Assembly: GCA_902537945.1 (NCBI GenBank)
Contig: CACBDG010000001.1
Coordinates: 62,001 to 126,000, forward strand
Direction: 5' to 3'
Source of the DNA: an uncultured SAR116 cluster alpha proteobacterium
GTDB lineage: Bacteria; Pseudomonadota; Alphaproteobacteria; Puniceispirillales; Marisalimonadaceae
Length of the DNA stretch: 64,000 nt
The notes under the pieces: generated by a model
Database searches by the model: none
The model's input: only the letters and a program-made list of their open reading frames with translations
What the model was told of the DNA's origin: nothing
Position numbers and translations under genes: made by a program
Part shown: positions 42,293 to 62,467 of the stretch, piece by piece
How the letters are laid out: the number at the start of each line of letters is the position of its first letter
Position numbering within the stretch: position 1 is the stretch's first letter

Positions 42293-42376
42293 TCACAAAC
42301 CAAAAAAAATTTATTATCTTATACAAACTTACATACGTTTTAATTTCGTTTCAATATTGTATTAGTAGAATTAAAA

Positions 42377-43339: not shown

Positions 43340-43426
43340 TTTTTTTGAAAACTCTTATGTAATTTTTTTTACATAAATGTTATTGATATATAAAATTTCT
43401 TTATATTAATTCTCAGGAGTGTTTTA

Positions 43427-45415: not shown

Positions 45416-45444
45416 GTATAATTACAGTGAGTAAATTTTTTTAA

Positions 45445-46641: not shown

Positions 46642-46676
46642 TTAAGTAATGTATAAATTTAGAAAGGAAAAAAATA

Positions 46677-47684
46677 ATGTCAGTTAGAGTTGCTATTAAT
46701 GGATTTGGAAGAATAGGAAGAAATATTTTAAGAGCTATTGTTGAATCAGCTCGAGATGACATAATTGTTGTTGGTATAAATGATTTAGGTCCAGTAGAAA
46801 CTAATGCTCATTTATTAAGATATGATAGCGTTCACGGAAAGTTTCCAGCAGATGTTAAAGTTAGTGGCAATGATTTGGATGTTGGACAAGGCCCTATCAA
46901 AGTAACTTCTATTAGAGATCCAAAAGATTTGCCTTGGAAAGAGCTTGATGTAGATATAGCTATGGAGTGCACTGGAATATTTACTAGCCGAGAAAAAGCT
47001 TCAATGCATTTAGACGCAGGTGCGAAGAGGGTGCTTGTTTCTGCTCCTGCTAGTGGTGTGGATCTTACTGTTGTTTATGGAGTAAATCATAAAAAAATAT
47101 CTAAAGATCACCTTGTTATCTCAAATGCCTCTTGTACTACGAACTGTCTAGCACCTGTAGCTATGGCGTTAAATAATGGGGTAGGTATAAATCAAGGTTT
47201 TATGACTACAATTCATTCTTATACAGGTGATCAACCAACATTGGATACAATGCATTCTGATCTTTATAGGTCGAGAGCTGCTGCTGGCAATATGATACCA
47301 ACCTCTACTGGCGCAGCTAAGGCAGTTGGATTGGTTTTACCAGAATTAAATGGAAAATTAGATGGTGTTTCGGTAAGAGTACCTACTCAAAATGTATCAG
47401 TTGTTGATTTTAAATTTAATTCTTCAAGATCGACTTCAGTTGACGAAATTAACAACATTATTAAAGAATCTGCCAATGGAGAGTTAAACAATATTCTTGG
47501 CTTTACAGACGAACCTCTTGTATCAAGTGATTTTAATCATGATTCACGTTCTTCTATTTTTCACATGGATCAAACAAAAGTGATGGACAATACATTCGTT
47601 AGAGTATTAAGTTGGTATGATAATGAGTGGGGTTTTTCTAATAGAATGTCAGATACCGCAGTAGCTATCGGTAAGACAATTTAA
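46677..47684 (+). CDS. gap: Glyceraldehyde-3-phosphate dehydrogenase, type I
   Basis: 335 residues; NAD(P) loop AINGFGRIGRNI, the catalytic cysteine in ASCTTNCLAP, and SYTGDQPTLD. INDLGPVETNAHLLRYDSVHG is the form common in alphaproteobacterial Gap. Co-factor preference (NAD or NADP) is not certain from sequence. It lies between pgk and rpe in the cluster. Confidence 0.96.
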   Translation: MSVRVAINGFGRIGRNILRAIVESARDDIIVVGINDLGPVETNAHLLRYDSVHGKFPADVKVSGNDLDVGQGPIKVTSIRDPKDLPWKELDVDIAMECTGIFTSREKASMHLDAGAKRVLVSAPASGVDLTVVYGVNHKKISKDHLVISNASCTTNCLAPVAMALNNGVGINQGFMTTIHSYTGDQPTLDTMHSDLYRSRAAAGNMIPTSTGAAKAVGLVLPELNGKLDGVSVRVPTQNVSVVDFKFNSSRSTSVDEINNIIKESANGELNNILGFTDEPLVSSDFNHDSRSSIFHMDQTKVMDNTFVRVLSWYDNEWGFSNRMSDTAVAIGKTI

Positions 47685-47723
47685 AAAAAGTTTAAACTCT
47701 ATGAAATAAAAAGGAATATTTGC

Positions 47724-48383
47724 ATGTCCGATGTGTTGATAGCACCATCAATATTATCATCAAATTTTTCATGTTTAGCGGAAGAAATTAAAGCTATTGA
47801 TAAAGCAGGAGCTGATTGGATACATTTAGATGTTATGGATGGTCATTTCGTGCCAAATCTTACATTTGGTCCTCCAATTATCAAATCTCTTAGAAATCAT
47901 TCAAAAAAACCATTTGATGCCCATCTAATGGTTACTAATCCAGATGACCTCTTAGAAGAATATGTTAATGCTGGTGTTGAAATGATAACTGTTCATAAAG
48001 AAGTTACTCCACATTTGGATAGAACTTTAAATCGTATTCATGAATTAGGATGTAAAGCAGGTGTTTCTATAAATCCAGCCACGTCTATTTCAGGTTTAGA
48101 GTTTTTATTAGATAAATTAGATCTAATTCTTATAATGACAGTAAACCCAGGTTTTGGTGGTCAAGTTTTTATTGAGTCATCTCTGAAAAAAATTAGATTA
48201 GTCAGAGAGTTAGTAAACAACAAACCTATCAAAATTCAGGTAGATGGTGGTATTGATAGGTTGGTTGCGCCTAAGGTAATTGAAGCAGGTGCAAATGTAA
48301 TTGTTGCAGGCTCAGCTGTTTTTAATGGAGATGGTGTAGAGAGTTATTCAAAAAATATAAAAGCTCTTCGTTATAAAACTTAA
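47724..48383 (+). CDS. rpe: Ribulose-phosphate 3-epimerase
   Basis: A TIM-barrel epimerase of 219 residues. IAPSILSSNFSCLAEEI, the metal-binding HLDVMDGHFVPNLTFGP, MTVNPGFGGQ and VDGGI are all present. Ends 3 bases before gph. Confidence 0.96.
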   Translation: MSDVLIAPSILSSNFSCLAEEIKAIDKAGADWIHLDVMDGHFVPNLTFGPPIIKSLRNHSKKPFDAHLMVTNPDDLLEEYVNAGVEMITVHKEVTPHLDRTLNRIHELGCKAGVSINPATSISGLEFLLDKLDLILIMTVNPGFGGQVFIESSLKKIRLVRELVNNKPIKIQVDGGIDRLVAPKVIEAGANVIVAGSAVFNGDGVESYSKNIKALRYKT

Positions 48384-48386
48384 AAT

Positions 48387-49049
48387 ATGAAAAAAACAGG
48401 TTATAATATTATTTTTGATTTAGATGGCACGTTAGTCCATTCAGTTCCTGACATGCACCATGCAATAAATAAAACTTTAACTAAATATAATTTAAAGAAT
48501 ATCTCTGAGAAAAAACTTCAGACTTTTGTTGGCGAAGGTATGTTGTCTTTATCAAAAAAAGTAGTTGATTTTTGTGGTGGAGATGAAAGTTTATATGAAA
48601 CTATTTTTAATAGTTACAGACAACATTATTCAGAACAACCTTATAGATATAGTACTTTAATGCCTGGAGTAATGGAAACTCTTAAATTTTTTTATGAGAA
48701 AAAAATATTAATGGGCATTTGTACAAATAAAAGACAATTTGTAACTGAAAAATTAATTCAAGAAATGAATCTAAATAAATTTTTTACAACAATTGTTGGG
48801 GCAAGAGATAATGTTCCGTTAAAACCAAAACCAAATATGTTATTATTAGCAATGGAAGGTTTTAAAACAACAAACAAAATGTTTTACATGGTTGGTGATA
48901 CATCAAATGATATTGACGCAGCTAAAGCAGCAAATATAAAATCAATTGTAATTGCAGGCGGTTACACTGATAAGGATGTTAACAAACTTGGAGCAACTCA
49001 TACCTTAAAAAACATGAAAGATATAATCAAACTTTTAGGTTTATACTAA
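48387..49049 (+). CDS. gph: HAD-family phosphoglycolate phosphatase
   Basis: A 220-residue HAD phosphatase. Nucleophile motif FDLDGTLVHSVPD, motif II CTNKR, Lys in LKPKPNML and motif IV MVGDTSNDIDAAKAAN. The cap domain and position after rpe support phosphoglycolate phosphatase. The 3' end overlaps the opposite-strand SDR gene by 4 bases. Confidence 0.9.
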   Translation: MKKTGYNIIFDLDGTLVHSVPDMHHAINKTLTKYNLKNISEKKLQTFVGEGMLSLSKKVVDFCGGDESLYETIFNSYRQHYSEQPYRYSTLMPGVMETLKFFYEKKILMGICTNKRQFVTEKLIQEMNLNKFFTTIVGARDNVPLKPKPNMLLLAMEGFKTTNKMFYMVGDTSNDIDAAKAANIKSIVIAGGYTDKDVNKLGATHTLKNMKDIIKLLGLY

Positions 49050-49966
49050 ATAGGATCCCAGCTAAAAACATCGCCACTTCTTTCATTAGGCGTCATGGAA
49101 TTTTTAAAAGATGGAAGTGCTCTTTCAGCAATTTCTTGTGGTGTCCATCCAGATTCTGAATGAACGCTTTTTATAGGTCTATTTTGATTATATATAAATA
49201 ATTCATTTAATCTTGCACTGAATATTTGTCCGCTGACATTTTTAGCAGCCTCTGAGGCTAAAAAAACAGCTAATGGGGCGTTGGTTTCAGGGGTCATTTT
49301 CTTCAATCTTTCTACCCTTTCTTTTTCAGCATCAGTATTTGAGGGTATTGAGTTAGTCATTCTACTCCAGGCAAAAGGTGCAATACAATTTGATCTAACA
49401 TTAAATCGGCTCATGTCCAGAGAAATTGATTTTGATAATCCAGCAATTCCTAATTTCGCGGCTGAGTAATTTGCTTGACCAAAATTTCCAATTAATCCAG
49501 ATGTACTTGTCATATGTACATAGACGCCTGAATTTTGTTCTCTAAAATAAGGGGCAACAGCTCGACTAACATAAAAGCTACCATTGAGATGAACACTTAT
49601 TACGTCATTCCAATCTGAGGGTTCCATTTTATGGAAAATTGTGTCTCTTAAAATACCAGCGTTATTTATAACAATATCTATTCTTCCATATGTATCTAAC
49701 GCTTTTTTAATTATTAATTGTGCACTATCCCATGAGGAAACACTATCGTTGCTAATTATAGCTTTTCCACCTTTTTGCGTAATTAATCCAACAGTTTCTT
49801 GTGCGGGGGATTCAGAACCACCCTCACCAGTTAATGAAACACCTATATCGTTCACTACAATTAATACTCCTTCTTTAGCAAGGGCAAGAGCTATTTCACG
49901 CCCAATTCCGCCACCGGCTCCAGTTACAATCGCTACTTTATTTTCTAATCCTAAATCTACAGCCAT
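49046..49966 (-). CDS. Short-chain dehydrogenase (3-hydroxyacyl-CoA dehydrogenase-like)
   Basis: A 306-residue SDR. Cofactor motif TGAGGGIG, NNAG (INNAGILRD), and the catalytic Ser/Tyr/Lys in HMTSTSGLIG...NYSAAKLG. The long C-terminus, NDIGVSLTGEGG and HKMEPSDWNDVISVHLNG closely resemble the dehydrogenase half of peroxisomal multifunctional enzyme-type proteins, so a 3-hydroxyacyl-CoA substrate is likely. It faces away from the accessory region and forms its left edge. Confidence 0.87.
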   Translation of the reverse strand: MAVDLGLENKVAIVTGAGGGIGREIALALAKEGVLIVVNDIGVSLTGEGGSESPAQETVGLITQKGGKAIISNDSVSSWDSAQLIIKKALDTYGRIDIVINNAGILRDTIFHKMEPSDWNDVISVHLNGSFYVSRAVAPYFREQNSGVYVHMTSTSGLIGNFGQANYSAAKLGIAGLSKSISLDMSRFNVRSNCIAPFAWSRMTNSIPSNTDAEKERVERLKKMTPETNAPLAVFLASEAAKNVSGQIFSARLNELFIYNQNRPIKSVHSESGWTPQEIAERALPSFKNSMTPNERSGDVFSWDPI

Positions 49967-50390: not shown

Positions 50391-50467
50391 GGTCTTGTAG
50401 CTCATCTGGATAGAGCATCTGATTCCTAATCAGAGGGTAGTAGGTTCGAGTCCTATCAAGACCACCA
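50391..50467 (+). tRNA. tRNA-Arg (anticodon CCT)
   Basis: A complete cloverleaf: acceptor GGTCTTG/CAAGACC, D arm GCTC/GAGC, anticodon stem TCTGA/TCAGA with loop TTCCTAA (anticodon CCT, reads AGG), T arm GTAGG/CCTAT with loop TTCGAGT, discriminator A and an encoded CCA. It sits at the left end of the accessory region, as tRNA genes often do at island junctions. Confidence 0.97.
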
Positions 50468-50527: not shown

Positions 50528-51337
50528 ATGATTAAGATAGCGGTTATGACAGAAAATGATGGGGTCTGGCTGAATGATGTTTGGGCTAAAACATTTAGAT
50601 TATTATTAAAAGAAGACTTTATTTTAGTTGGCCTCATTGAGACCCCAAAAAAACTTTCAAATCATATGGGTCATAACATACCCCTTTGGTATGCAAGTAC
50701 TTTTGGTTTGACTGATTTTGTTAAGTTGTCATTATTTGCTATCACCCAAATTGTCAAGCGACGATTATCTTCCAATTATGGAGGTGGTTCTCTGAAAAAT
50801 ATTGCTAAAGCGTTTGGGATAACATATATAAAGTGCGATACGCCCAATGATAAACAAATAGTAGACTGGATCAAAGCCCATGATATTGATATCGTAGCTT
50901 GTACCACCAGCTTCATAATTAGCAAAATAACATTAAAAGCACCCCGATTGGGTTTCGTAAATAAACATGCAGCGATACTACCGGCTAACAAAGGTTTGTT
51001 CCCTTACTTTTGGGCTCATTCAAATAACCAACCTAAAGGTGTCTCTTATCATTTAATGTCTGAAGAAGTTGATAAAGGGCCTCTTCTTTATCAAGTTGTA
51101 TATCCTAAATCAAAAGACACAGGTTCAATGGTGAATTTCTATCATTATGTATTTCACTTATTTCCAGAACATATGGTTGATGCCATCAAGGCATGTATCA
51201 ATCAGCGATTTATGTCTCCAAACCAAAAGGTAAAAAGTAGTTATTCTGGATTGCCTAAAAGAAAAGACGTTATAGATTTTCGCATAAAAGGCGGCAGAAT
51301 AATTGATTGGATGGATATTTTTAGGTTAATTAAATAA
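50528..51337 (+). CDS. Formyltransferase-family protein (sugar N-formyltransferase-like)
   Basis: A 269-residue protein of the methionyl-tRNA formyltransferase fold. The catalytic Asn-His-Asp set is visible as N145 and H147 (FVNKHAAILP) and D182 (EEVDKGPLL); the N-terminal part has the expected IAVMTEND start and the VACTTSFI strand. It lacks the C-terminal tRNA-binding domain length of Fmt (about 310 residues), so formylation of an amino sugar in surface polysaccharide is more likely. It is directly followed by a polysaccharide deacetylase. Base composition is visibly richer in G+C than most of the window. Confidence 0.78.
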   Translation: MIKIAVMTENDGVWLNDVWAKTFRLLLKEDFILVGLIETPKKLSNHMGHNIPLWYASTFGLTDFVKLSLFAITQIVKRRLSSNYGGGSLKNIAKAFGITYIKCDTPNDKQIVDWIKAHDIDIVACTTSFIISKITLKAPRLGFVNKHAAILPANKGLFPYFWAHSNNQPKGVSYHLMSEEVDKGPLLYQVVYPKSKDTGSMVNFYHYVFHLFPEHMVDAIKACINQRFMSPNQKVKSSYSGLPKRKDVIDFRIKGGRIIDWMDIFRLIK

Positions 51338-51350
51338 CGAGGGGAAGACT

Positions 51351-52292
51351 ATGACTAATAATAAACCAATAGCTATATCGCTTAATTTTGATTCACTTCA
51401 TGAAGCCTACGGTTTTCCAAAAAACTTCAGAGATCCTTGCTTTAGTGATGGGTTCAATCGGATAGCTGAACTTTGTGCGAAATATAGTTTTCCACTATCA
51501 ATTTATGTTGTCGGAAAAGATCTTACAGATCCTGAAAGGGCGTCTGCGGTCAAAGAATGGTCTGCCCAAGGTCACGAAATAGGAAATCATTCATGGTCTC
51601 ATCATTTTAATCTTGGCAGTCTTTCAAGTGTTGAATTAAGGGATGAAGTTCACCGATCACACGATCTGATCTCGGAAATTACTGGTATTGAACCCAAAGG
51701 TTTCATTTCCCCTTGCTGGTCGACTTCAGCAAAGCTGGTAGAGATTTTATTGGAGTTAGAATATTCTTATGATACATCTGCTTTTCCATCTTTTTTGCTT
51801 TATCCAATGGTCGCAAAAATCGCTCTTAATCACTGGCAAAAACCTCTTAAAGGTTTTCGTGCACTAAGACGTAGAGACTGGTTGGGTCCAATTAAGTTCT
51901 CAAAGCACCCATTTTATTTAGACTCTAAAATGAAGGTTCATAACAAACCAGGAGATGGACGCCTTTTAATTTTACCACTACCTTCATCTGGAAGGTTTTC
52001 CTCAGCAATATGGCATACGGTTGGATTTATGTTTGGTTGGGATTTTGTTCGAGAAGCTGTGATCAAGTTGGGTAAGGAGCAAGAAGGTTTTTATTATTTA
52101 ATTCATCCCGCAGACTTTTTGGGTAAAAACGATATGAATGAAAAGTATAACATGTCACTAGCGCGGATGGATGTTCCATTGAAAGAAAAACTCAAGTATC
52201 TTGATGAAGTTTTTTGTTTGTTAAAAGAGACCAAAAGACCTGTCAAGACAATGAAAGAAGTAGCATTAAGTGTAGAAAACATTGGTACATAG
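51351..52292 (+). CDS. Polysaccharide deacetylase (NodB-fold) family protein
   Basis: A 313-residue carbohydrate esterase family 4-like protein. The metal and catalytic residues are in NFDSLHE (D14) and HEIGNHSWSHH (H80 and H84). There is no signal peptide, so it acts in the cytoplasm, as for ArnD-like or lipid-linked sugar deacylases. A strong GAGGGG ribosome site precedes the ATG, 13 bases after the formyltransferase. Sampled lines are 43-48% G+C (29/60 at 51541-51600; 26/60 at 51661-51720), far above the adjacent genes, suggesting transfer. Confidence 0.82.
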   Translation: MTNNKPIAISLNFDSLHEAYGFPKNFRDPCFSDGFNRIAELCAKYSFPLSIYVVGKDLTDPERASAVKEWSAQGHEIGNHSWSHHFNLGSLSSVELRDEVHRSHDLISEITGIEPKGFISPCWSTSAKLVEILLELEYSYDTSAFPSFLLYPMVAKIALNHWQKPLKGFRALRRRDWLGPIKFSKHPFYLDSKMKVHNKPGDGRLLILPLPSSGRFSSAIWHTVGFMFGWDFVREAVIKLGKEQEGFYYLIHPADFLGKNDMNEKYNMSLARMDVPLKEKLKYLDEVFCLLKETKRPVKTMKEVALSVENIGT

Positions 52293-52315
52293 TTAAGAAA
52301 TATTATATGTTGTAT

Positions 52316-52388
52316 ATTTCTGTAGTTTACCTGGATAATGCAACTTAATAATTACTTGTTCCAGGTTCGTGTCCTGGTAGGATCACCA
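52316..52388 (+). pseudogene. Degenerate tRNA, intact 3' half only
   Basis: The 3' half is perfect: T stem CCAGG/CCTGG with loop TTCGTGT, then TAGGATC, A and an encoded CCA (52386-52388). The 5' half keeps TA and GTTT-ACCTGGATA as D-arm remains, but the acceptor strand barely pairs, and the anticodon arm and variable loop are too short. It is therefore a broken tRNA or an attachment-site copy. Its sequence is not that of the tRNA-Arg at 50391. Confidence 0.65.
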
Positions 52389-52426
52389 ATTTAATTAGAT
52401 TTTAAGAATAGGATGTTTCAAAAAAT

Positions 52427-53353
52427 ATGTTTAAGGTTTTTAAAGTTCCTGAGCTTCACAATATTAATAATATTTTGGATTTATCTGAAGCTAAATTACC
52501 CACAAAATTGGATGATATTGACTATGATGAATTTTATAAAATAGAAAATCATAGCGATAGACCGTATCATAGTTTTAAAAATGTAGTAAAAAAGAACCTT
52601 AAAAAAGAATATAATACATTCCTTGAAATTGGAGCAGGAACAGGAAGGTTCACCGTTCCTTTTTTAAGAAACTCAGATATAAAAACAGCTGTTATTACAG
52701 ATATCTCAAAGCAAATGCTAACGATTAATAAAAATAAACTTAAGAAAGAAAAAATTAATACAAAATTACACTTTGCAACATATACTGGTACAGAAAATAT
52801 ATTCAAAGAAAGTGTTTTTGATTTAATCATTGGAACATCTGTATTACATCATATGGAAAATTATGAAACAACATTATCTAATGTGTTTAAAGTTCTTAGA
52901 CCACGTGGAAAAGCAATTTTTTTGGAACCAGATCTCAATTGGCATAAAGAATTAGTTTGTTTTTTGGAGAATATACTTTTGGATCTCTTCAAGAAATGGG
53001 GAACCCAATCAAAAGATTTTTTAAAATTAATTAATTGGTTATACGAAGTTAAATTCAATGTAAAATATGCTGGTGAATTAGACTTTTTAAAAACAAGGGA
53101 AGATAAGCATATGTTTGATAAAAAAGAAATCCAAAAATTAGGCAGATGTTTGGGATTTAAAAGAGTTAAAATTTTATACGAAGGTATAAAAGTGGAAAAT
53201 AGTTTAAGTACTTATCTGTCACAGTGTGATTTATCGAAACAAGGAATAGAAGATGTATTAGACTTTTTTAAAAATAAAAAAAAATTTTCTTCATTTAAAA
53301 AATTTAATTGTTCATCGATGATTTTCATTTTAAAAAAGTCATATTGGTTTTAG
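52427..53353 (+). CDS. Class I SAM-dependent methyltransferase
   Basis: A 308-residue methyltransferase. Motif I is FLEIGAGTGRFTVPF (about 66-79), motif II ITDIS, motif IV DLIIGTSVLHHMEN, and post-IV VLRPRGKAIFLEPD. The acceptor is unknown. The C-terminal 120 residues are extremely Lys/Phe-rich, matching the A+T-rich composition that starts here. Placed in a region with sugar-modifying genes, a surface-glycan methyltransferase is possible. Confidence 0.85.
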   Translation: MFKVFKVPELHNINNILDLSEAKLPTKLDDIDYDEFYKIENHSDRPYHSFKNVVKKNLKKEYNTFLEIGAGTGRFTVPFLRNSDIKTAVITDISKQMLTINKNKLKKEKINTKLHFATYTGTENIFKESVFDLIIGTSVLHHMENYETTLSNVFKVLRPRGKAIFLEPDLNWHKELVCFLENILLDLFKKWGTQSKDFLKLINWLYEVKFNVKYAGELDFLKTREDKHMFDKKEIQKLGRCLGFKRVKILYEGIKVENSLSTYLSQCDLSKQGIEDVLDFFKNKKKFSSFKKFNCSSMIFILKKSYWF

Positions 53354-53368
53354 TATGAAAGTTAAAAG

Positions 53369-53824
53369 ATGAACTTTGTGTTTTTTGATCTAGTTTTACA
53401 GTTTTATAAAAATAAGAGTGATAATGTTTTGTCAAAAAAAGAATTGGTTTTATCCAATATTGGTGATGAGAGACAAAAAAATCTAAAAAATTCAGCTAAA
53501 CAAAAATTTTTTAAAAACTTCAATAATACACCCGTTTTAAATAAAATACACGGGTGGAGTTATGGTTCTGAGGAGTTATATTGTATTCAAATCGAAATAG
53601 ACTCTATTCTTTACGAAGCCCCGATAGGATTACCTCGACAAGATATTATGAATGCATTTTACGTACAAGAACAAAATAATTTTCTAAATACTTTATTTTC
53701 TGGCATTGATTTTAGCTTTAATAAAACTGATTTTATAATAAAGTCTAGTGAGCCATCCCTGAGTTCTATTAAAATTACATTTCTCAATCTCAATAAACAA
53801 AAAATCTATGACCAAATATGGTAA
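53369..53824 (+). CDS. Hypothetical protein, 151 residues
   Basis: Not recognised. It starts 15 bases after the methyltransferase. No signal peptide or membrane segment; the middle has WSYGSEELYCIQIEIDSILYEAPIGLP, and the rest is polar and Asn/Lys-rich. The even coding pattern and an intact frame between two real genes support it as a gene. Confidence 0.6.
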   Translation: MNFVFFDLVLQFYKNKSDNVLSKKELVLSNIGDERQKNLKNSAKQKFFKNFNNTPVLNKIHGWSYGSEELYCIQIEIDSILYEAPIGLPRQDIMNAFYVQEQNNFLNTLFSGIDFSFNKTDFIIKSSEPSLSSIKITFLNLNKQKIYDQIW

Positions 53825-53940
53825 CTTAAAAAGAAAATTATTGAAAAATTTAAATAAAGATAATCTTAAGTGAAATTAACTTTTTTTTATTAACTTTACA
53901 TGTTAATAAATTTTACTAAACATTATTAATTATGTAAAAA

Positions 53941-55170
53941 ATGTTGATGAAAAATTTTGGTTTTTTTATAGATAATATAGAAAAGAATATAAAAATTAAT
54001 TACTTTTTTATAATTTTTATAATAATTTCTGGATTTTTTATTTACACATTCCCCAATCAGTTATACCCAGATTTTAATAATTTAGATAGAAATTTCAAAA
54101 ACGTACTTAATGCATATTTTTCTGGTTCAACAGAGGTTAAATCAAAAACATATGGTGGAAAATTAGAGGTTCATAATTTATTAACTGATCAGTTATTTTT
54201 AACACCACAGTTAAAAATTATTCAATGTATAAATTTTTTTTATGATCTTTCAAGCATCAAAAATCTAAATATATCAAGCAATCATATTAAATATTATTTC
54301 CTTTTAATAACGACGTTAATAGTTTTTCTTCTTATATTTATAGATAAATTTCTAAATTTTTATCAAGAAAACAAACAAAAAAATACGATATTTTTTACAT
54401 CTTTGTTATTTCCAAGTAGCCTAATGTCTATTACGGTGCCATCTTCGGAAGCGATCTTTACTGTTATTATAATTTTCTTATTTTCAAGAGCTTTTGAAAA
54501 AAATTTAAACTTAATGCAAATAATATTTTATTTAATCTTAGGTGTTTATTGTTTTTTCCTTGATAGCGGAAATTCTATATTAAGTTATATTTTTATTTTT
54601 AATGTACTAATTATGTATGGGCTTATTAAATTTAATAAATTATTTTTTTCAATTGTTTTTTTAACAACTATTTTATTTATTTTATTATTTGTAAATGAAA
54701 TAATTTTCTATTTAGCTTATGCAACTGATAGCCATAAAATTCACCGGATAATTGGAGATATTCATAATACCCCTTTACAAAATAGAGAATTATATGAAAT
54801 TAGTAAAAGATTTTTATTTTTGATTGTAACTTTATTAGCAATATTCACATCCAGTAAAAATTTAGTTATTTCGTCTACAATTTTTATTTTATATTTAATT
54901 TATAATTTTTTATTTAATTTTATTACAAAAAGAAAAACTATTTTTAACAACATTAGCGATTACGAATTAGCCATTTTATTAAATACAATTTTTTTACCAT
55001 TTGTTATTGTTTACATGCTTCCACTTCACGCATATGGAAAATATTATCTATTTTTAATTCCAATCATTTTTAAAATATTTTCAAAAGTAATGAATATCAA
55101 CAAAGTTGCAAAGTTAAATATATTTTTTAGTATCTTATTTATTTTTAATATAATTTTTTTTAATTTTTAA
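53941..55170 (+). CDS. Polytopic membrane protein of unknown function
   Basis: A 409-residue protein with about 9-11 hydrophobic helices; the long loop after helix 1 (roughly 40-110) contains PNQLYPDFNNLDRNF and TYGGKLEVHNLL. The layout (N-terminal helix, large outer loop, many helices, LPLHAYGKYYLF near the end) recalls glycosyltransferase-C or polymerase-like proteins, but no catalytic motif is identifiable. Very A+T-rich. Convergent with the small HAD gene, 8 bases apart. Confidence 0.65.
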   Translation: MLMKNFGFFIDNIEKNIKINYFFIIFIIISGFFIYTFPNQLYPDFNNLDRNFKNVLNAYFSGSTEVKSKTYGGKLEVHNLLTDQLFLTPQLKIIQCINFFYDLSSIKNLNISSNHIKYYFLLITTLIVFLLIFIDKFLNFYQENKQKNTIFFTSLLFPSSLMSITVPSSEAIFTVIIIFLFSRAFEKNLNLMQIIFYLILGVYCFFLDSGNSILSYIFIFNVLIMYGLIKFNKLFFSIVFLTTILFILLFVNEIIFYLAYATDSHKIHRIIGDIHNTPLQNRELYEISKRFLFLIVTLLAIFTSSKNLVISSTIFILYLIYNFLFNFITKRKTIFNNISDYELAILLNTIFLPFVIVYMLPLHAYGKYYLFLIPIIFKIFSKVMNINKVAKLNIFFSILFIFNIIFFNF

Positions 55171-55178
55171 AACAAACT

Positions 55179-55505
55179 TTAATCTAATTTCATTCTAAAA
55201 TAATCCTCACTCCATATGGCTTTATCATCTATCCATAAATCATAATGTGGCTTATCACCAACTCTGAGTGATGTGTATTTACAATTCCATTTTTTTAGTT
55301 GTTCAGTTGTAAGTTGTTTGTGATCTATTCCAGTCAAAGAACCTCTTGCAGTCCAATAATGAATTTCATTTCCATCATCAAATAATTTATTAATGATATT
55401 TATTCTCTCTAAATTAGGTATAGCATTATTATAATTTTTAGATCCATCACTATTAAAAGACTCACTACAAATTGTCCCATCTATATCTACAATATAAACT
55501 TTCAT
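55179..55505 (-). CDS. Small HAD-like phosphatase (capsule/LPS-locus type)
   Basis: A 108-residue HAD protein. The nucleophile motif is YIVDIDGTIC (D7, D9), the motif II region is EIHYWTARGS, and the end LRVGDKPHYDLWIDDKAI resembles the motif III/IV of small capsule-biosynthesis phosphatases. It lacks a cap domain. It is the only minus-strand gene of the accessory region. Confidence 0.75.
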   Translation of the reverse strand: MKVYIVDIDGTICSESFNSDGSKNYNNAIPNLERINIINKLFDDGNEIHYWTARGSLTGIDHKQLTTEQLKKWNCKYTSLRVGDKPHYDLWIDDKAIWSEDYFRMKLD

Positions 55506-55675
55506 AAAACAAAATCCTTTAAAATTTTTTGATTATCATAAACTCAAATAAAAAAAACAACTATTTCTTTTTCATGAAATTATTAGGAGAAATTATTTTG
55601 AAACCATAATTCTCAAGTTCTAAATTGTTATAATAGAACATTGATTTTATCAATTATTTTGTCTAGATTGACCCG
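55506..55675. other. Noncoding region upstream of the DUF4956 gene
   Basis: About 170 A+T-rich bases between two divergent genes; promoters for both should lie here. No ribosome site is seen before the ATG at 55676. Confidence 0.3.
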
Positions 55676-56347
55676 ATGGAAGATATCCTATTAAATCTAC
55701 AATCTCAAGATGATGAAATTTCTCTTTCTTTAACCGTAATTAACTTTGTCCTTTGTATTTTTTTTTCATTGATACTAAAAGAATTTTTTCTACGTTTTTC
55801 AAATGTTTCATTCAACAGAGTATCAATAGCACGAAATTTAGTAATTCTCTCTTCTATAGTATTTGTGGTTATAGTTATAGTTAAAAATTCCTTAGCTTTG
55901 TCACTAGGATTAGTTGGTGCTTTGTCTATAGTTAGATTCAGAACACCAATTAAAGAACCTACGGAATTAATTTATTTGTTTTTTAGTATTGCTCTGGGGT
56001 TAGGCTTTGGCTCATCACAGACATTGATTACTTCAATTTTATCTATTCTATTATTTCTTTATATTTATTTTACAAGAACAAAAGATTTTGCAACATCACA
56101 AATAGATGATTACAACTTAATAATTGAGTGGAGTGATAAAGTTGAAACTTTAGATAAAATTAATGAAATTATAAAAAAATATAACGAAATTATTTCAATT
56201 GAAAAAATATCATCAGATAAAAATAAAATGGTTGTTATGTACTTCATAAACGTACAATCTGAAGAAAATCTTTTCAAATTAATAAATGATGTCAAAAAAT
56301 TAAAAATTAATAGTATTGATTATTTCAAAGTTCAAAATGTTTTATAA
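55676..56347 (+). CDS. DUF4956 membrane protein
   Basis: A 223-residue protein with about four N-terminal membrane helices and a cytoplasmic C-terminal domain. The DUF4956 hallmark LGLVGALSIVRFRTPIKEPTELIYLFFSIALGLGFG is at about residues 76-111, although the start of the track here is typical too. It is first of a three-gene run (2-base and 5-base gaps) with a VTC-domain protein and a CotH-like protein. Function unknown; family members recur beside VTC-domain polyphosphate polymerases. Confidence 0.88.
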   Translation: MEDILLNLQSQDDEISLSLTVINFVLCIFFSLILKEFFLRFSNVSFNRVSIARNLVILSSIVFVVIVIVKNSLALSLGLVGALSIVRFRTPIKEPTELIYLFFSIALGLGFGSSQTLITSILSILLFLYIYFTRTKDFATSQIDDYNLIIEWSDKVETLDKINEIIKKYNEIISIEKISSDKNKMVVMYFINVQSEENLFKLINDVKKLKINSIDYFKVQNVL

Positions 56348-56349
56348 AT

Positions 56350-56985
56350 ATGAATCGAATTGAAAGAAAATTTATTCTTGAAAATGGTTTTAAATCGAAA
56401 ATTGTTGTTCAAAGTTTACAGAAAAAATATCCAATAAAAAAAATTTTTAATTCTAGAGAAATTAACACTATTTATTTTGATACTAATAAACTTGATTATT
56501 TGTATGATAATTTAAGTGGTATAAAAAATAGAGTAAAATCAAGAGTAAGATTTTATTCAAATTATAATGATCAAATTATATATGAAGAAAAAATTAAGAA
56601 AAATGAAATTGGTTCAAAAAGAAAAATTTATATAACTCCTAAGAACGAAAAAACATTAGACTATGAAAATTCACTAAAAAGTTTCAAAAAAAGTAAAATT
56701 TATCTAAATTCTAAATATTTTCTGAAAGAAACACTTTTCGTTAAATACAACAGAGAATATTTCACTGACATATTTGGAAATTTTATAACCCATGATACTA
56801 AAATTGAATTTTTTGATGTAAAGTTTTTCAAAAAGTCTGTTTTGTATAAAAAATCAATTATAGAATATAAAATTAATGAGAAAAATTTTGAAAAAAAATT
56901 ATTCTATAATTTTAATATTAGATATTCAAGACACTCAAAATATGTTGTTGGGATGGCATTGTTAAATAAAACTTCTTACGTATAA
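56350..56985 (+). CDS. VTC-domain protein (polyphosphate polymerase-like)
   Basis: A 211-residue stand-alone VTC tunnel domain. The basic and acidic lining residues are recognisable: RIERKF at the start, INTIYFDT, KSRVRFYSN, YEEKIKKNEIGSKRK, FVKYNREYF, SIIEYKIN and SRHSKYVVGM. In yeast Vtc4 this fold makes polyphosphate from ATP. Whether this one is catalytic is not provable, but the Arg/Lys pattern and a C-terminal Glu (EYK) are kept. Extremely A+T-rich (one sampled line 8 G+C of 60, at 56881-56940). Confidence 0.85.
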   Translation: MNRIERKFILENGFKSKIVVQSLQKKYPIKKIFNSREINTIYFDTNKLDYLYDNLSGIKNRVKSRVRFYSNYNDQIIYEEKIKKNEIGSKRKIYITPKNEKTLDYENSLKSFKKSKIYLNSKYFLKETLFVKYNREYFTDIFGNFITHDTKIEFFDVKFFKKSVLYKKSIIEYKINEKNFEKKLFYNFNIRYSRHSKYVVGMALLNKTSYV

Positions 56986-56990
56986 GATCT

Positions 56991-59657
56991 ATGTATATAA
57001 AAAGACATAAATTTAAAATAAATATTATAATAATCTTCTCAATCTTTCTTTCTTTATTTTTTGTTTATTTAAATTCCAACAAAAAACTGATCAGAAAAGA
57101 ATTTTTTTACATAATTGATATTTTAGATTCTAAACTAGAAAAAGTTACCACTTTTGCGGAATTATTTAATCGTAATAATGTCTATGATATGGGTGAATCA
57201 TATTTAGAAATTTTTCAAACAGTTTTTATAAACTTTCCATCTTTCTTGAAGAAAATTCCAGATTATTATTCTTCTGATAGATATCAATTTGAACATTTAT
57301 TTCTTAACTTTAATTTTAATAATTATAAAAAACTTTTAGAAGATAGATTAGCGTCCATAAAGTCAAATATTGGAACTGTAGATAGAAATGAGGTTGGTGG
57401 ATCACTCAAAATTGACAATGAAATATATAAAATTGATAGTTCAATTAAGGGCAAATTAATAGATCATTTCAGATCACCTCAAAGATTCAGTTTAAAATTG
57501 ACTATGAAAAATAATAAATATTTTTTTGGCATGAGAGAGTTTTCGATACAGAAACCTGAATCAAGAGCTTCTCCTTATGAACAGATATTTCTAGAAATAG
57601 CAAAAAATCTAGATTTTGTAATTCCAAAACATATGTTTTTTAAGGTAAATTTTAATGACAAAAATTGGGGTGTTATGAATATAGAAGAAAACCCCTCCAA
57701 AGAGACACTTGAATTACAAAAATTTACAGGAGAATTAGTTTTCCAATTTGGAAATGAAAAAAATAAATTTTTAGAAAAACAATTTTTTTCTAGCCCTCCT
57801 ATGGATAGTATTATTAATTTAGAGACATTTCCTATAAGGTTTCTAGACAAAAAAAGGTTGCAAGAAAATAAATTCTTTACAAATATTCTAAAAAAAGAAA
57901 AATTTAACCAAAATATCTATGATTATTTTGATCATGAAAAAATGTGTACCCTCGCAATACTTTCTATCATATGGGGTAGTTCTCATGTATTAGAACTTAA
58001 TAACACACAGTATGCTTATAACATATATTCAAGAAAAATTTCTCCAATACCTCAAGATGTAGCTTCTTCACTTCATAAGATAACGGATATAAAGAATATT
58101 CCTCCAATAACAAGATTATATTTTAATTCTTGTTCTAGAGTTGAAAATAAAAAATACATATTAAATAAAATTAAATCAGCAATCAAAAAATCTCAGAAAA
58201 AAATAAACTTATTACAACGTCAATTCCCAATGAACAGAAAACTTAATACTAAAATTCTATATGAAAATATAAATTTTTTAGAAATAAATATTAATAATTT
58301 TTTGAAAATAACAAGAGATAGATTACCTATTAAAAAAGAAGTTTATAACCAAAAGATTTTAGAAAAAATTAATATTTTTAACATTCACTTTATCAATAAA
58401 AAAAATGAATTATATCTTCATTTAGGAAATCAACTTAAATCAGATATATTTTTAAAAAGTTTAATTTTATCTTCTAATGATGGGAATAGTGATTTTAATA
58501 AAAAAATTAAAGTTAACAAAAAAATTAGAGGCATCTATTTTCAAGATTTTCAAGAATTTTTAGATAAAAAAAACAACACAAGAATATCTCTTCCTTTATC
58601 TTCTTCAATATTTAACTCCAAAATTGAAAGAATTTATTTTGACGTCAATATTGACAACGTTGACTTTAGGTTTGTTTTGTCAAAAAAATTCACAAAACTT
58701 AATTATAAAGTAAAAAATAAAAATCATAATTCTTATAAATTCATTGAGAAAATTGATGAAAATGTATTTTTATGGAAAAAGGGAATTTGGACAATCAGCA
58801 AACCAATCATTTTAGAAAAAGATCTTATTATTAAAGAGGGGACTGAAATAAATTTTATAAATAAATCTTATCTCTATCTAAAAGGTAAAATTAAAATTTT
58901 AGGTAAAGAAAGCAATAAAGTTAAAATGTTCTCAAGCGATAATTCTTGGAAAGGTTTACATATAAACTCAAATGATATAAATAATCCTTCCATTATTAAT
59001 CATGCAGAATTTTCTGAACTAAATGCATATATTGATGATAAATTTAAGATGAATGGCGGAATTAATTTTTATAATTCGGATGTAAAAATAAATTATCTTA
59101 AGATCCACAAAGTGTATGCTGAGGATGGAATAAATTTAATAAATTCATCATTTATGATAAACAATCTTATTATTGAAGACACTATATCTGATGCTCTTGA
59201 CGCAGATTTTTCTAAAGGTGTAATCGAAAACTCAATTTTTAAGAATATTAATGGAGATGCTGTAGACACATCAGGTTCAAAAGTATTAATCAGAAATACA
59301 TCCTTCAACAAGATCTTAGACAAGGCTATTTCCGCTGGGGAAAAAAGCAATGTTAAATTATTAAATTTATCATTTAATCAATGTCTAATCTGCATTGTTT
59401 CTAAAGATGATAGCCGTGTTGATTTAGAAAGTTTTGATGTACAAAATTATTCATTATATTTTGCGGCATCCTTCAAAAAGAAAAACTTTTATGAAAAAGG
59501 CGGTGTCTTAAATTTTATTAATTCAGAAAAAGATTATTTAAAATCATTGAAAATTGTAAGAGATAATCAATCAAAAATTTATTTAAATGACAATAGCTTA
59601 AATACAGAAATCAATAATGACTTTAGATATTTTTATGAAAATAAAATCTTTAACTAA
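56991..59657 (+). CDS. CotH-like protein fused to a right-handed beta-helix
   Basis: An 888-residue membrane-anchored protein. One N-terminal helix (about 11-28). The CotH-like part (about 140-400) has SIKGKLIDHFRSPQRFSLKL, YFFGMREFSIQKPESR and KVNFNDKNWGVMNIEENPS, matching the wrapped core of CotH kinases, and NNTQYAYNIY then SPIPQDVASSLH where CotH proteins have the NNyylY and pip(W)D-D motif. The second Asp of the DxD pair appears lost (QDVASS). About 600-830 reads as a parallel beta-helix with repeated NSxF/NxSF turns (INSSFMINNLII, ENSIFKNINGDAVD, RNTSFNKIL). CotH kinases phosphorylate surface proteins; activity here is doubtful. It is third in the DUF4956-VTC cluster. Confidence 0.78.
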   Translation: MYIKRHKFKINIIIIFSIFLSLFFVYLNSNKKLIRKEFFYIIDILDSKLEKVTTFAELFNRNNVYDMGESYLEIFQTVFINFPSFLKKIPDYYSSDRYQFEHLFLNFNFNNYKKLLEDRLASIKSNIGTVDRNEVGGSLKIDNEIYKIDSSIKGKLIDHFRSPQRFSLKLTMKNNKYFFGMREFSIQKPESRASPYEQIFLEIAKNLDFVIPKHMFFKVNFNDKNWGVMNIEENPSKETLELQKFTGELVFQFGNEKNKFLEKQFFSSPPMDSIINLETFPIRFLDKKRLQENKFFTNILKKEKFNQNIYDYFDHEKMCTLAILSIIWGSSHVLELNNTQYAYNIYSRKISPIPQDVASSLHKITDIKNIPPITRLYFNSCSRVENKKYILNKIKSAIKKSQKKINLLQRQFPMNRKLNTKILYENINFLEININNFLKITRDRLPIKKEVYNQKILEKINIFNIHFINKKNELYLHLGNQLKSDIFLKSLILSSNDGNSDFNKKIKVNKKIRGIYFQDFQEFLDKKNNTRISLPLSSSIFNSKIERIYFDVNIDNVDFRFVLSKKFTKLNYKVKNKNHNSYKFIEKIDENVFLWKKGIWTISKPIILEKDLIIKEGTEINFINKSYLYLKGKIKILGKESNKVKMFSSDNSWKGLHINSNDINNPSIINHAEFSELNAYIDDKFKMNGGINFYNSDVKINYLKIHKVYAEDGINLINSSFMINNLIIEDTISDALDADFSKGVIENSIFKNINGDAVDTSGSKVLIRNTSFNKILDKAISAGEKSNVKLLNLSFNQCLICIVSKDDSRVDLESFDVQNYSLYFAASFKKKNFYEKGGVLNFINSEKDYLKSLKIVRDNQSKIYLNDNSLNTEINNDFRYFYENKIFN

Positions 59658-59766: not shown

Positions 59767-60651
59767 ATGAATTTTTTTTTAGATTTTAACTTATCTTCAT
59801 TAAAAATAAAGGGGGGGTTTATTAGATATAGGTATGCTGGAAATGGACCTCCACTTTTAATGTTGCATGGAAATCCACAAACACATGCAATGTGGCATAA
59901 AATTGCTCCAGCTCTAATTAAGAGATACACGATTATTTGTCCAGATATTCCTGGTTATGGAAAGTCTTTCAAACCTAAAATATCTAAAGATCATAAAAAT
60001 TATTCAAAAGTTAGAATGGCCTCTTATATAAATGAGTTTATGACTTTGTTAGGATTCAATAAATTTTATTTTATTGGCCATGATAGAGGTGCAAGAATTG
60101 GTCATCGTTTAGCATTAAACTATCCTGATAAAATTTTAAAATTAATATTATTAGACATAATACCAACTATTGAACATTTTGAGAGAACTAATAAAGAATT
60201 TGCAATGGGTTACTATCATTGGTTTTGGTTGGCTCAGAGATATCCAATTCCAGAGTCAGTAATTAACAAAGCACCTGAGGAGTGGTTCTTTGCACACACT
60301 TCAAGAGAAAAAAAAGATAAAGATTTTTTTGCACCTAAAGCATTAAGTGATTACCTTGAGTGTGTTAAAAATCCCGAAACTATTAGAGCTATTTGTGAAG
60401 ATTATAGAGCGGCAGCATCTATTGATTTGAAAGATGATGAGATAAGTAGAAAACAAAATATAAAAATTAAGATGCCAATACTAGTTTTGTGGGGTAAAAA
60501 AGGTAAGATAGAACAATGGTATGATCCGTTACCAATTTGGCAAAAATACTGTGTTCAAAAAGTAAAAGGTTATGGTATTGATACTGGTCATTATCTAGCT
60601 GAGGAAAATCCTGATGAAATTATAAAAAGCATTAATAGCTTTTTAAAATAA
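59767..60651 (+). CDS. Alpha/beta hydrolase of the haloacetate (fluoroacetate) dehalogenase type
   Basis: A 294-residue alpha/beta hydrolase with an Asp nucleophile. The residue set of fluoroacetate dehalogenase is present with a constant offset: nucleophile D106 (GHDRGAR), carboxylate-binding R107 and R110, acid D130 (LDIIPT), H151 and W152 (YYHWFW) for the halide pocket, and H275 (DTGHYLAEE). The opening MLHGNPQTHAMW is also the family form. The natural substrate in a marine bacterium may be haloacetate or another small acid. It is not part of the A+T-extreme region. Confidence 0.85.
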   Translation: MNFFLDFNLSSLKIKGGFIRYRYAGNGPPLLMLHGNPQTHAMWHKIAPALIKRYTIICPDIPGYGKSFKPKISKDHKNYSKVRMASYINEFMTLLGFNKFYFIGHDRGARIGHRLALNYPDKILKLILLDIIPTIEHFERTNKEFAMGYYHWFWLAQRYPIPESVINKAPEEWFFAHTSREKKDKDFFAPKALSDYLECVKNPETIRAICEDYRAAASIDLKDDEISRKQNIKIKMPILVLWGKKGKIEQWYDPLPIWQKYCVQKVKGYGIDTGHYLAEENPDEIIKSINSFLK

Positions 60652-60676
60652 AACAAATAAAGGTTGAATATTAAAT

Positions 60677-62467
60677 ATGAATGAAATGCATTTAAATAAA
60701 ATAAACAATGAATTACCGCAATGGGATCTTTCAGAAATATATCAAAATATTAAAGATCCAAGAATTAGCAAAGATATAAAAGATATTAAAGAGTCAGCAG
60801 ATGATTTTGTCAAAAATTGGAAAGGGAAAATAAATAACTTAAGTTCATCAGAATTCTTGGTTTGTATAAATGAATATCAAAAACTTAACGAAGCAATTTA
60901 TAAGATAGCAACACATAGTAGTTTAATTTTTGCTACAAATATGGAAGACCCTGAAATTTCTAGATACAATTCGTCAATATCTGATCAAATTACAGAAATT
61001 TTATCTACCCTCATTTTTGTAACACTAGAACTTTCAAAAGTAGATGATAAAACTATTAAAAATTGGTTAAATGATCAAGATGTAAAAATATGGAAACCAT
61101 ACCTAAATATACTTAGAAAAAGAAACCCTTATCTTCTAGATCCTCTCGTGGAAGAAATTTTAATAGAGAAATCTGCTACTGGTAGGTCAGCATGGATAAG
61201 ATTATTTGATGAGACCTCAGCAGCATTACGTTTTCCTTTTAAAAAAGAATCACTTACTGAAGCAGAAATTTTAAACTTGTTATCTGATGCTGATCCAGAA
61301 ACTAGAAAAATTGCAGGTAAATCACTTTCTGAAGTTTTAGAAAATAATAAACGTATTTTTGGAATGATACTTAATGTTATTTCTCGAGATAGGTTTATTG
61401 AAGATAATAAAAGGGGTTTTAAAAGAATTATGTCCTCAAGAAATCTTGATAATGATGTTGAGGACGAGGTTGTAGATAAATTAGTAAAGACGGTCGATAA
61501 GGCTATGCCTAAACTTACCCATAGATATTATAAATGGAAAGCAAATCAATTTGGGAAGACAAATTTAGATTGGTGGGATAGAAATGCACCATTACCTGAA
61601 TTTTCTGAAAATTTTATAATGTGGTCTGATGCAAAAGATATTATTTTAGATTCATTTTCTTCCTTTCATCCAAAAATTTCTAATCTTGCAAATTTATTTT
61701 TTAAAAATAATTGGATAGACGCAAGTTTGCGAAAAGGAAAAGCATCAGGTGCGTTTGCACATCCGTCTGTACCATCCTTACACCCATATATTTTAGTAAA
61801 TTATCAAGGAAAAATTAGAGATGTTATGACACTTGCTCATGAATTAGGTCATGGTGTTCATCAAATTCTTGCTGGTAAAAATGGATTATTAATGTCAGAA
61901 ACCCCATTAACGTTAGCTGAAACCGCATCAGTTTTTGGAGAAATGTTAGTATTTAGAAAGTTGTTAAATGAAAGTCCAATTGAACAAAAAAAACAACTAT
62001 TATCGGGTAAAATAGAAGATATGTTAAATACTGTTGCTAGACAAATTGGATTTCACCAATTCGAGGTTAAATTTCATGAGGCAAGGATTAAGTCTGAATT
62101 AACACCTGATGAAATTAGTGATATTTGGATGGAAACACAGTCCCATGCTGTAGGTCCTCATATCAATCTTGGTGATGATTACAGGTTCTTATGGGGGTAC
62201 ATTCCTCACTTTGTCCATACTCCATTTTATGTATATGCTTATGCTTTTGGAGATAGTCTAGTAAACGCACTATGGTATGCTTATCAAGAAAGCGATAAAG
62301 ATTTTTTTTCAAAAAACTATATTGAAATGTTATCATCAGGAGGAACTAAAAGTCATAGTGATTTACTAAAACCTTTTAATCTAAGCGCCTACGACAGTAG
62401 TTTTTGGGAAAAAGGTATTAAAATGATAACTGGTTTAATGGATGAACTAGAACTATTGGAAAATTAA
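60677..62467 (+). CDS. pepF: M3 family oligoendopeptidase F
   Basis: A zinc peptidase of 596 residues that degrades short peptides in the cytoplasm. The zinc site HELGH is in LAHELGHGVHQ, with the third ligand Glu in ETPLTLAETASVFGE. Length and the N-terminal WDLSEIYQN are typical of PepF. An AAAGG ribosome site is present; it follows the dehalogenase-like gene by 25 bases. Confidence 0.94.
   Translation: MNEMHLNKINNELPQWDLSEIYQNIKDPRISKDIKDIKESADDFVKNWKGKINNLSSSEFLVCINEYQKLNEAIYKIATHSSLIFATNMEDPEISRYNSSISDQITEILSTLIFVTLELSKVDDKTIKNWLNDQDVKIWKPYLNILRKRNPYLLDPLVEEILIEKSATGRSAWIRLFDETSAALRFPFKKESLTEAEILNLLSDADPETRKIAGKSLSEVLENNKRIFGMILNVISRDRFIEDNKRGFKRIMSSRNLDNDVEDEVVDKLVKTVDKAMPKLTHRYYKWKANQFGKTNLDWWDRNAPLPEFSENFIMWSDAKDIILDSFSSFHPKISNLANLFFKNNWIDASLRKGKASGAFAHPSVPSLHPYILVNYQGKIRDVMTLAHELGHGVHQILAGKNGLLMSETPLTLAETASVFGEMLVFRKLLNESPIEQKKQLLSGKIEDMLNTVARQIGFHQFEVKFHEARIKSELTPDEISDIWMETQSHAVGPHINLGDDYRFLWGYIPHFVHTPFYVYAYAFGDSLVNALWYAYQESDKDFFSKNYIEMLSSGGTKSHSDLLKPFNLSAYDSSFWEKGIKMITGLMDELELLEN

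Follow-up and report, generated by a model that had tools for sequence, protein, structure and literature searches.

Introduction

Gene sets that combine a CotH protein, a poly-phosphate polymerase and a DUF4956 protein have been reported to accompany Gram-positive pel operons as accessory genes (PMC7112168). In Streptococcus intermedius the set is SIR_1592-1594, where aggregation fell and the amounts of Pel changed when the DUF4956 and CotH genes were deleted; the authors did not find such synteny outside pel (PMC12345266). Here we analyse a unit of the same three families, DUF4956, VTC and CotH, at positions 55676-59657 of a 64,000-nucleotide stretch (the window) of an uncultured SAR116 cluster alphaproteobacterium (assembly GCA_902537945.1, contig CACBDG010000001.1, positions 62,001 to 126,000). 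Our preferred reading, held tentatively and with a nearly even chance of being right, is that the unit is a membrane phosphate-transfer machine acting on surface glycan.

The first-pass annotation of this DNA had presented the unit as its best candidate for an undescribed system. This stands only in part: a similar gene set has been published as pel accessory genes (PMC7112168, PMC12345266), but the fusion of CotH to a beta-helix and the pel-independent spread go beyond that description. DUF4956 is named in just three papers of the open literature, to which our reading was confined (subscription papers and preprints lay outside its scope), and an earlier description elsewhere is possible.

A conserved three-gene unit

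The unit consists of the following genes.

55676 to 56347, plus strand: DUF4956 membrane protein, 223 amino acids (PF16316, 51 bits, cut-off 30.6; AlphaFold2 model; match to the MgtC C-terminal domain 2lqj)
56350 to 56985, plus strand: stand-alone VTC domain, resembling polyphosphate polymerases of the triphosphate-tunnel (TTM) type, without a membrane part, 211 amino acids (PF09359, 52 bits, cut-off 23)
56991 to 59657, plus strand: CotH-like/right-handed beta-helix fusion with an N-terminal anchor helix, 888 amino acids (profile against 5JD9; AlphaFold2 model)

All three reading frames are intact, and their coordinates agree with the spacing first noted, with 2 bases between DUF4956 and VTC and 5 bases between VTC and the CotH-like gene. 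The Pfam scores, both above their cut-offs, bear out the first two assignments. The label "A+T-extreme" is likewise apt, the unit having a G+C content of 19-24% in its genes and the whole window about 32%.

There is good support for the existence and conservation of this three-gene module. Among 299 sampled Pseudomonadota genomes, almost all of them 90% complete or better, DUF4956 was found in 6 and a VTC domain above cut-off in 5, all of them within those 6 (Fisher p 3e-10; 1.6e-8 without the window genome). All seven VTC copies in this sample lie no more than about 3 kb from a DUF4956 gene. Three genomes had matches to the CotH subfamily above 100 bits, each time next to DUF4956 and VTC; three weaker matches (21-22 bits) did not have these neighbours.

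A scan of genome_contigs with DUF4956 yielded 80 loci from about 14 phyla. These are the nearest relatives of the window DUF4956, and the following VTC and CotH counts therefore apply to that subgroup. Within 8 kb of DUF4956, home-made hidden Markov models detected VTC in 65 and CotH in 66 of the 80 loci; where at least 5 kb was available on both sides (n=42), the counts were 39 and 38. Moreover, the protein distances of the three unit genes correlate (r 0.80, 0.75 and 0.70), to which the shared ancestry of the host genomes contributes. The statement in the first-pass annotation that DUF4956 and CotH-like proteins recur beside VTC is thus confirmed by the gene-neighbourhood search, which shows an association far above chance. 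The unit was found in Bacteroidota, SAR11, Planctomycetota, Chloroflexota and others, including the named strains Dokdonia pacifica and Pareuzebyella sediminis, and it is therefore testable now.

The notion that the three genes always occur together was dropped: loci of the G143/G159 type carry DUF4956 and VTC without CotH, and G267 has DUF4956 alone (39 bits). A two-gene subtype in alphaproteobacteria combines a short DUF4956 of about 190 amino acids, with a differing motif (GLFAILALFSLRSE), and VTC without CotH (L018:6621-8092, L019:5616-7012 and L020:5882-7284).

Membership of the unit in a Pel system (pelDEADAFG) was rejected by a search for PelG (PF16933), which gave no match in 50 of 51 unit-bearing genomes, including the window genome (assembly about 75% complete). 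The sole PelG lies on a contig other than that of the unit. With PelG in only one of the 51 genomes, the unit is largely independent of Pel.

The VTC domain keeps the catalytic residues of Vtc4

The VTC family profile matches yeast Vtc4 (3G3Q) with an E-value of 1.2e-11. We judged the tunnel by alignment to Vtc4, with Vtc4 residue numbers assigned by counting along the 5IIQ alignment.

56542 to 56550, plus strand: R65 and R67 of VTC, equivalent to Vtc4 R264 and R266 in the Vtc4 alignment and invariant in 48 relatives
56782 to 56784, plus strand: F145 of VTC, at the position of Vtc4 R373, where 75 of 76 relatives have Arg
56863 to 56865, plus strand: E172 of VTC, equivalent to Vtc4 E426 in the Vtc4 alignment and the alignment of relatives

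Twenty columns are invariant in the alignment of 48 VTC sequences, among them the equivalents of R264, R266 and E426, whose triple mutant in Vtc4 is catalytically impaired (PMC9911596). The window copy also keeps the equivalents of K200, K281, K294, R361 and K458. A lack of the tunnel basic residues, which the first-pass annotation had named as grounds against its idea, is not borne out by the alignment: they are retained, catalytic positions included, except that the R373 equivalent is F145; for this reason the window VTC may be weakened, but not the family. We regard synthesis and export of polyphosphate by the unit as likely.

TTM enzymes share a basic tunnel and yet differ in the reactions they catalyse. 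The VTC domain might thus be another triphosphate-tunnel enzyme, for example a triphosphatase or an enzyme yielding a nucleotide product, with polyphosphate not involved, and the cited literature holds no assay of a bacterial member of this VTC group. We consider this distinctly improbable: the residue match is to Vtc4 itself, including the equivalents of R264, R266, K281, K294, R361, E426 and K458, and PF09359 is the sole TTM family matched by the gene.

A search for PPK1 found it in the window genome and in 14 of 26 genomes that carry the unit. This rules out VTC as the only polyphosphate enzyme of the cell, and ordinary polyphosphate does not require the unit.

The third protein is a CotH-beta-helix fusion with an altered active site

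Single-sequence searches with the 888-amino-acid protein (Pfam, NCBIfam, and phmmer against PDB) gave nothing usable, and profiles were required. A whole-genome scan with the Pfam CotH model (PF08757) gave a single match, within the third gene, at 19.3 bits and below the cut-off of 23.8. A profile built from 46 relatives of the protein matched the solved Bacillus cereus CotH 5JD9 at an E-value of 3e-23. The designation "CotH-like" thus holds on the strength of this profile match, but the C-terminal beta-helix had been overlooked. In the AlphaFold2 model the mean predicted local distance difference test (pLDDT) score is 80; the beta-helix is well predicted and parts of residues 447-577 have low confidence. 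The fold comparison covered the CotH and beta-helix domains.

57015 to 57077, plus strand: N-terminal anchor helix, residues 9-29 (helix in the AlphaFold2 model)
57285 to 58307, plus strand: CotH-like domain, residues 99-439 (5JD9, Z 25.0, 299 residues aligned, root mean square deviation 2.9)
57564 to 57566, plus strand: R192, Arg in the beta-helix-fused subfamily and Asp in most unfused CotHs (CotH alignment)
57984 to 57986, plus strand: H332, His in the column of the CotH catalytic Asp (CotH and 5JD9 profile alignments)
58056 to 58058, plus strand: D356, second active-site Asp (B. subtilis D251 position), retained (CotH and 5JD9 profile alignments)
58701 to 59621, plus strand: right-handed beta-helix, residues about 571-877 (nearest fold alginate epimerase AlgG, 4nk8, Z 25.5)
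59124 to 59483, plus strand: conserved ladder D712, N715, D734, D737, D739, D756, D759, D777, K778, S781, E784, K805, D806, S808 and K831 (65 relatives)

A Lys/Arg-rich stretch precedes the anchor helix, which suggests a predicted topology with the N-terminus in the cytosol and the bulk of the protein in the periplasm.

In an alignment of 83 CotH domains, 64 of them beta-helix-fused, the column of the catalytic Asp holds His in 55 of the 64 fused proteins and Asp in 12 of 15 unfused ones. At the R192 column, this fused subfamily has Arg in place of Asp. E233 is invariant and D356 mostly retained, so that the window protein has R192, E233, H332 and D356. The 5JD9 alignment places the H332 column at the Asp of QNFDGF, with the next conserved Asp found in VIPWDYD. 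The spacing of 24 between H332 and D356 fits B. subtilis D228/D251, an assignment made by spacing since the B. subtilis sequence was outside the alignment. Mutants of D228 and of D251 in B. subtilis CotH are inactive (PMC7821199); the third protein lacks the first of these two Asp residues and has the second as D356. One SAR11 unit (L109:10709-12358) encodes a CotH of 549 amino acids that carries the His signature without a detected beta-helix; it was counted as unfused.

The altered column brings in the main rival explanation, a regulatory sensor. Here DUF4956, with its MgtC-like and ACT-like parts, and VTC would sense the nucleotide or phosphate state, and the CotH-beta-helix protein would be a non-catalytic pseudokinase that binds glycan or polyphosphate and tunes surface-polymer output. 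The loss of the catalytic Asp in 55 of 64 fused CotHs would fit such a role, the ACT-like domain is a common ligand sensor, and the S. intermedius mutants alter the amount of Pel and do not abolish it. We nevertheless regard a sensor as unlikely. The His and Arg are strongly conserved along with E233 and D356, which suggests a working site and not decay; the VTC catalytic residues are invariant, and the exported pyrophosphatase found beside some units is left unexplained.

The nearest solved folds of the beta-helix are AlgG (4nk8; Z 25.5, 268 residues aligned, root mean square deviation 2.9) and AlgE4 (Z 24.3). Numerous further glycan-active beta-helices rank after these two, the fold being common to many families. 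The motif DPH, which we take to be the catalytic motif of the mannuronan C5-epimerases AlgG/AlgE, is absent from the 888-amino-acid protein, where the closest stretch is DALDADFS at 734-741. Membership in the alginate epimerases was therefore dropped. At one locus (L061) the beta-helix and CotH are encoded by two separate adjoining genes. In L041, L042 and L045 a second CotH-beta-helix paralogue, with most of the active-site signature residues lost, is found at or near the unit.

The DUF4956 membrane protein

The AlphaFold2 model of DUF4956 (pLDDT 88) has five predicted membrane helices followed by a C-terminal ACT-like (ferredoxin-like) domain. The fold comparison covered the ACT-like part, which resembles the MgtC C-terminal domain 2lqj (E-value 5e-4), ACT-like folds being common. 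The MgtC Pfam model (PF02308) scored 13.9 bits, below its cut-off of 31.4. The signature LSLGLVGALSIVRFRTPIKEP is almost invariant, and the protein has a conserved cationic loop.

55934 to 55954, plus strand: cationic loop R87-F-R89-T-P-I-K93 of DUF4956, with R87, R89 and K93 invariant in 56 relatives

At three Chloroflexota loci (L088:9302-10648, L103:9326-10675 and L089:879-2462) a PF06439 domain (3-keto-disaccharide hydrolase-like) is fused to the N-terminus of DUF4956. On the basis of this fusion, a topology with the N-terminus outside and the ACT-like domain inside would fit. In L088 and L103 the PF06439-DUF4956 gene adjoins CotHs of the normal Asp type.

Exported phosphate enzymes as recurrent neighbours

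When the other genes of the 80 loci were clustered into families, metallophosphoesterases (PF00149) appeared in 24 loci, mostly near the unit and mostly with N-terminal signal or anchor sequences. Inorganic pyrophosphatases (PF00719) were found in 6 loci, in 4 of them less than 80 bp from a unit gene. All six unit-linked pyrophosphatases have a signal-like start and the DxDxxD signature, and five have a lipobox-like Cys. In a SAR11 single-cell genome (L106:9008-14759) five genes stand in the order metallophosphoesterase, DUF4956, CotH-beta-helix, VTC and exported inorganic pyrophosphatase. An exported pyrophosphatase beside the unit suggests that phosphoanhydrides are likely present outside the cytoplasm.

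Such enzymes could also trim chains on a polyphosphate-decorated surface, where exported polyphosphate would stay outside as a polyanion or attached to glycan, with the CotH-beta-helix protein anchoring the chain and not using it as a donor. The conserved Lys residues within the beta-helix ladder would suit an anchor, and yeast VTC couples synthesis to export (PMC9911596). We hold this explanation to be improbable, as it does not account for the retention of a kinase fold with conserved active-site columns.

Genomic setting

The first-pass annotation had placed the unit in an accessory region, and the comparison within the genus agrees. The flanks at 40787-49966 and 59767-62467 are syntenic in four same-genus genomes (about 67-99% identity), and the genes at 50528-59657 are absent at that place in all four, except for a homologue of 55179-55505 in two of them. 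The hypervariable stretch extends from a tRNA-Arg (50391-50467) to the gene at 59767, and the unit fills one gap there. This site is empty in L122, L125 and L130, where only about 90 to 305 bp, without the unit, separate the homologue of 55179-55505 and the gene at 59767.

In the genus, DUF4956 was detectable in 3 of 37 genomes, many of the assemblies being incomplete. The two other units (G006 and G032) have the order DUF4956, CotH-beta-helix, VTC. The differing gene order and sites and the identity of only about 24-34% are consistent with separate gains of the three units. In G032 (L006:1-18405) the unit stands among glycan genes, by eye aminotransferase-like genes, a glycosyltransferase and a mannose-1-phosphate guanylyltransferase-like gene. 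A phage origin was discarded, as a DUF4956 scan of viral_contigs gave no relative.

The genes next to the unit, at 51351-55505, look like surface-glycan genes: a polysaccharide deacetylase, a methyltransferase, a very A+T-rich membrane protein that has no Pfam match (53941-55170, 19.6% G+C) and a small protein of HAD type with weak similarity to the capsule phosphatases EcbF/BcbF.

Proposed function

For a membrane phosphate-transfer machine we propose the following steps. To judge by its conserved residues, cytosolic VTC would, like Vtc4, build polyphosphate from the gamma-phosphate of ATP. DUF4956, with its cationic loop and cytosolic ACT-like domain, would dock VTC and pass or gate the chain through the inner membrane, in parallel to the yeast Vtc membrane channel. 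The CotH-beta-helix protein, which would lie mostly in the ATP-free periplasm, might then bind the exported chain; its altered CotH site would take the chain as phosphate donor or ligand, and the epimerase-like beta-helix would hold a polysaccharide. Going by the neighbours in other genomes, the exported pyrophosphatase and metallophosphoesterase may remove pyrophosphate or trim the product. It is a reasoned guess that the CotH-beta-helix protein modifies a glycan with polyphosphate as the donor.

We favour the phosphate-transfer machine because the families co-occur both in the 299-genome sample and in the 80 loci, and because the VTC catalytic residues are conserved. The CotH homology with His at the catalytic Asp column and the conserved Asp/Lys ladder on an epimerase-type beta-helix also speak for it. 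Further grounds are the exported pyrophosphatases (6 loci) and metallophosphoesterases (24 loci) that adjoin the unit, the glycan genes near it, the PF06439-DUF4956 fusions in some Chloroflexota, and the altered Pel amount and aggregation in the S. intermedius DUF4956 and CotH deletions (PMC12345266).

Several points weigh against it. The function of the whole unit is one that we infer. The S. intermedius study mentions no change in its polymerase mutant (PMC12345266), and loci with DUF4956 and VTC exist that lack CotH. The window VTC has Phe in place of the R373 equivalent, where both same-genus units have Arg. With His at the position of the catalytic Asp, the kinase could be dead. The DUF4956 model is a monomer, in which a pore is only proposed. 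Finally, the window unit and the two same-genus units have neither pyrophosphatase nor metallophosphoesterase neighbours.

The first-pass annotation had suggested a machine in the membrane that makes or senses polyphosphate or a phosphorylated structure at the surface. This remains the best-supported reading, given the VTC catalytic residues, the integral membrane nature of DUF4956 and the exported phosphatases, but its view of the third protein as a kinase of secretory type is open to doubt, since this CotH subfamily has His at the position of the catalytic Asp.

A narrower version would be an ATP-free extracytoplasmic phosphorylation, in which exported polyphosphate is the donor for a periplasmic CotH with a catalytic His, the glycan held by the beta-helix is phosphorylated and the exported pyrophosphatase pulls the reaction forward. 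We rate it as rather unlikely. How a kinase-type enzyme could work outside the bacterial cytoplasm without ATP is an open question, which a polymerase plus channel supplying polyphosphate would answer, if true.

Overall, a set known only as helper genes of Gram-positive pel emerges as a widespread, largely pel-independent module. It has its own recognisable subfamily of CotH, marked by the Asp-to-His and Asp-to-Arg changes and by the fused beta-helix, and recurrent exported phosphate enzymes.

Comparison with known systems

With the Gram-positive pel accessory set the unit shares the same three families in one contiguous set, an MgtC/ACT-type membrane protein and a secreted CotH. In contrast to that set, the present units mostly stand without pel genes, their CotH bears a fused beta-helix and has His for the catalytic Asp, whereas the streptococcal CotH is described with an FN3 domain, and in other phyla they have exported pyrophosphatase and metallophosphoesterase neighbours.

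The yeast VTC complex (Vtc4 TTM domain with the Vtc1/3/4 membrane channel) has a homologous polymerase domain with the same catalytic residues and a membrane-protein partner. However, the unit has no SPX domain, DUF4956 belongs to another membrane family, and a periplasmic CotH-beta-helix protein is added. DUF4956 in turn resembles MgtC in having a membrane domain followed by an ACT-like domain, with a weak Pfam MgtC match, but differs in its signature, its Pfam family and the association with VTC and CotH in the loci.

The third protein shares fold, sequence profile, the second active-site Asp and the conserved Glu with the CotH spore-coat kinase (5JD9/5JDA), but has His for the catalytic Asp, Arg for another Asp, a membrane anchor and the beta-helix fusion. 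With AlgG/AlgE it has in common the right-handed beta-helix (Z 24-25), the periplasmic location and an acidic conserved face, whereas identity is only about 11-15%, DPH is absent and the Asp/Lys ladder is peculiar to the third protein.

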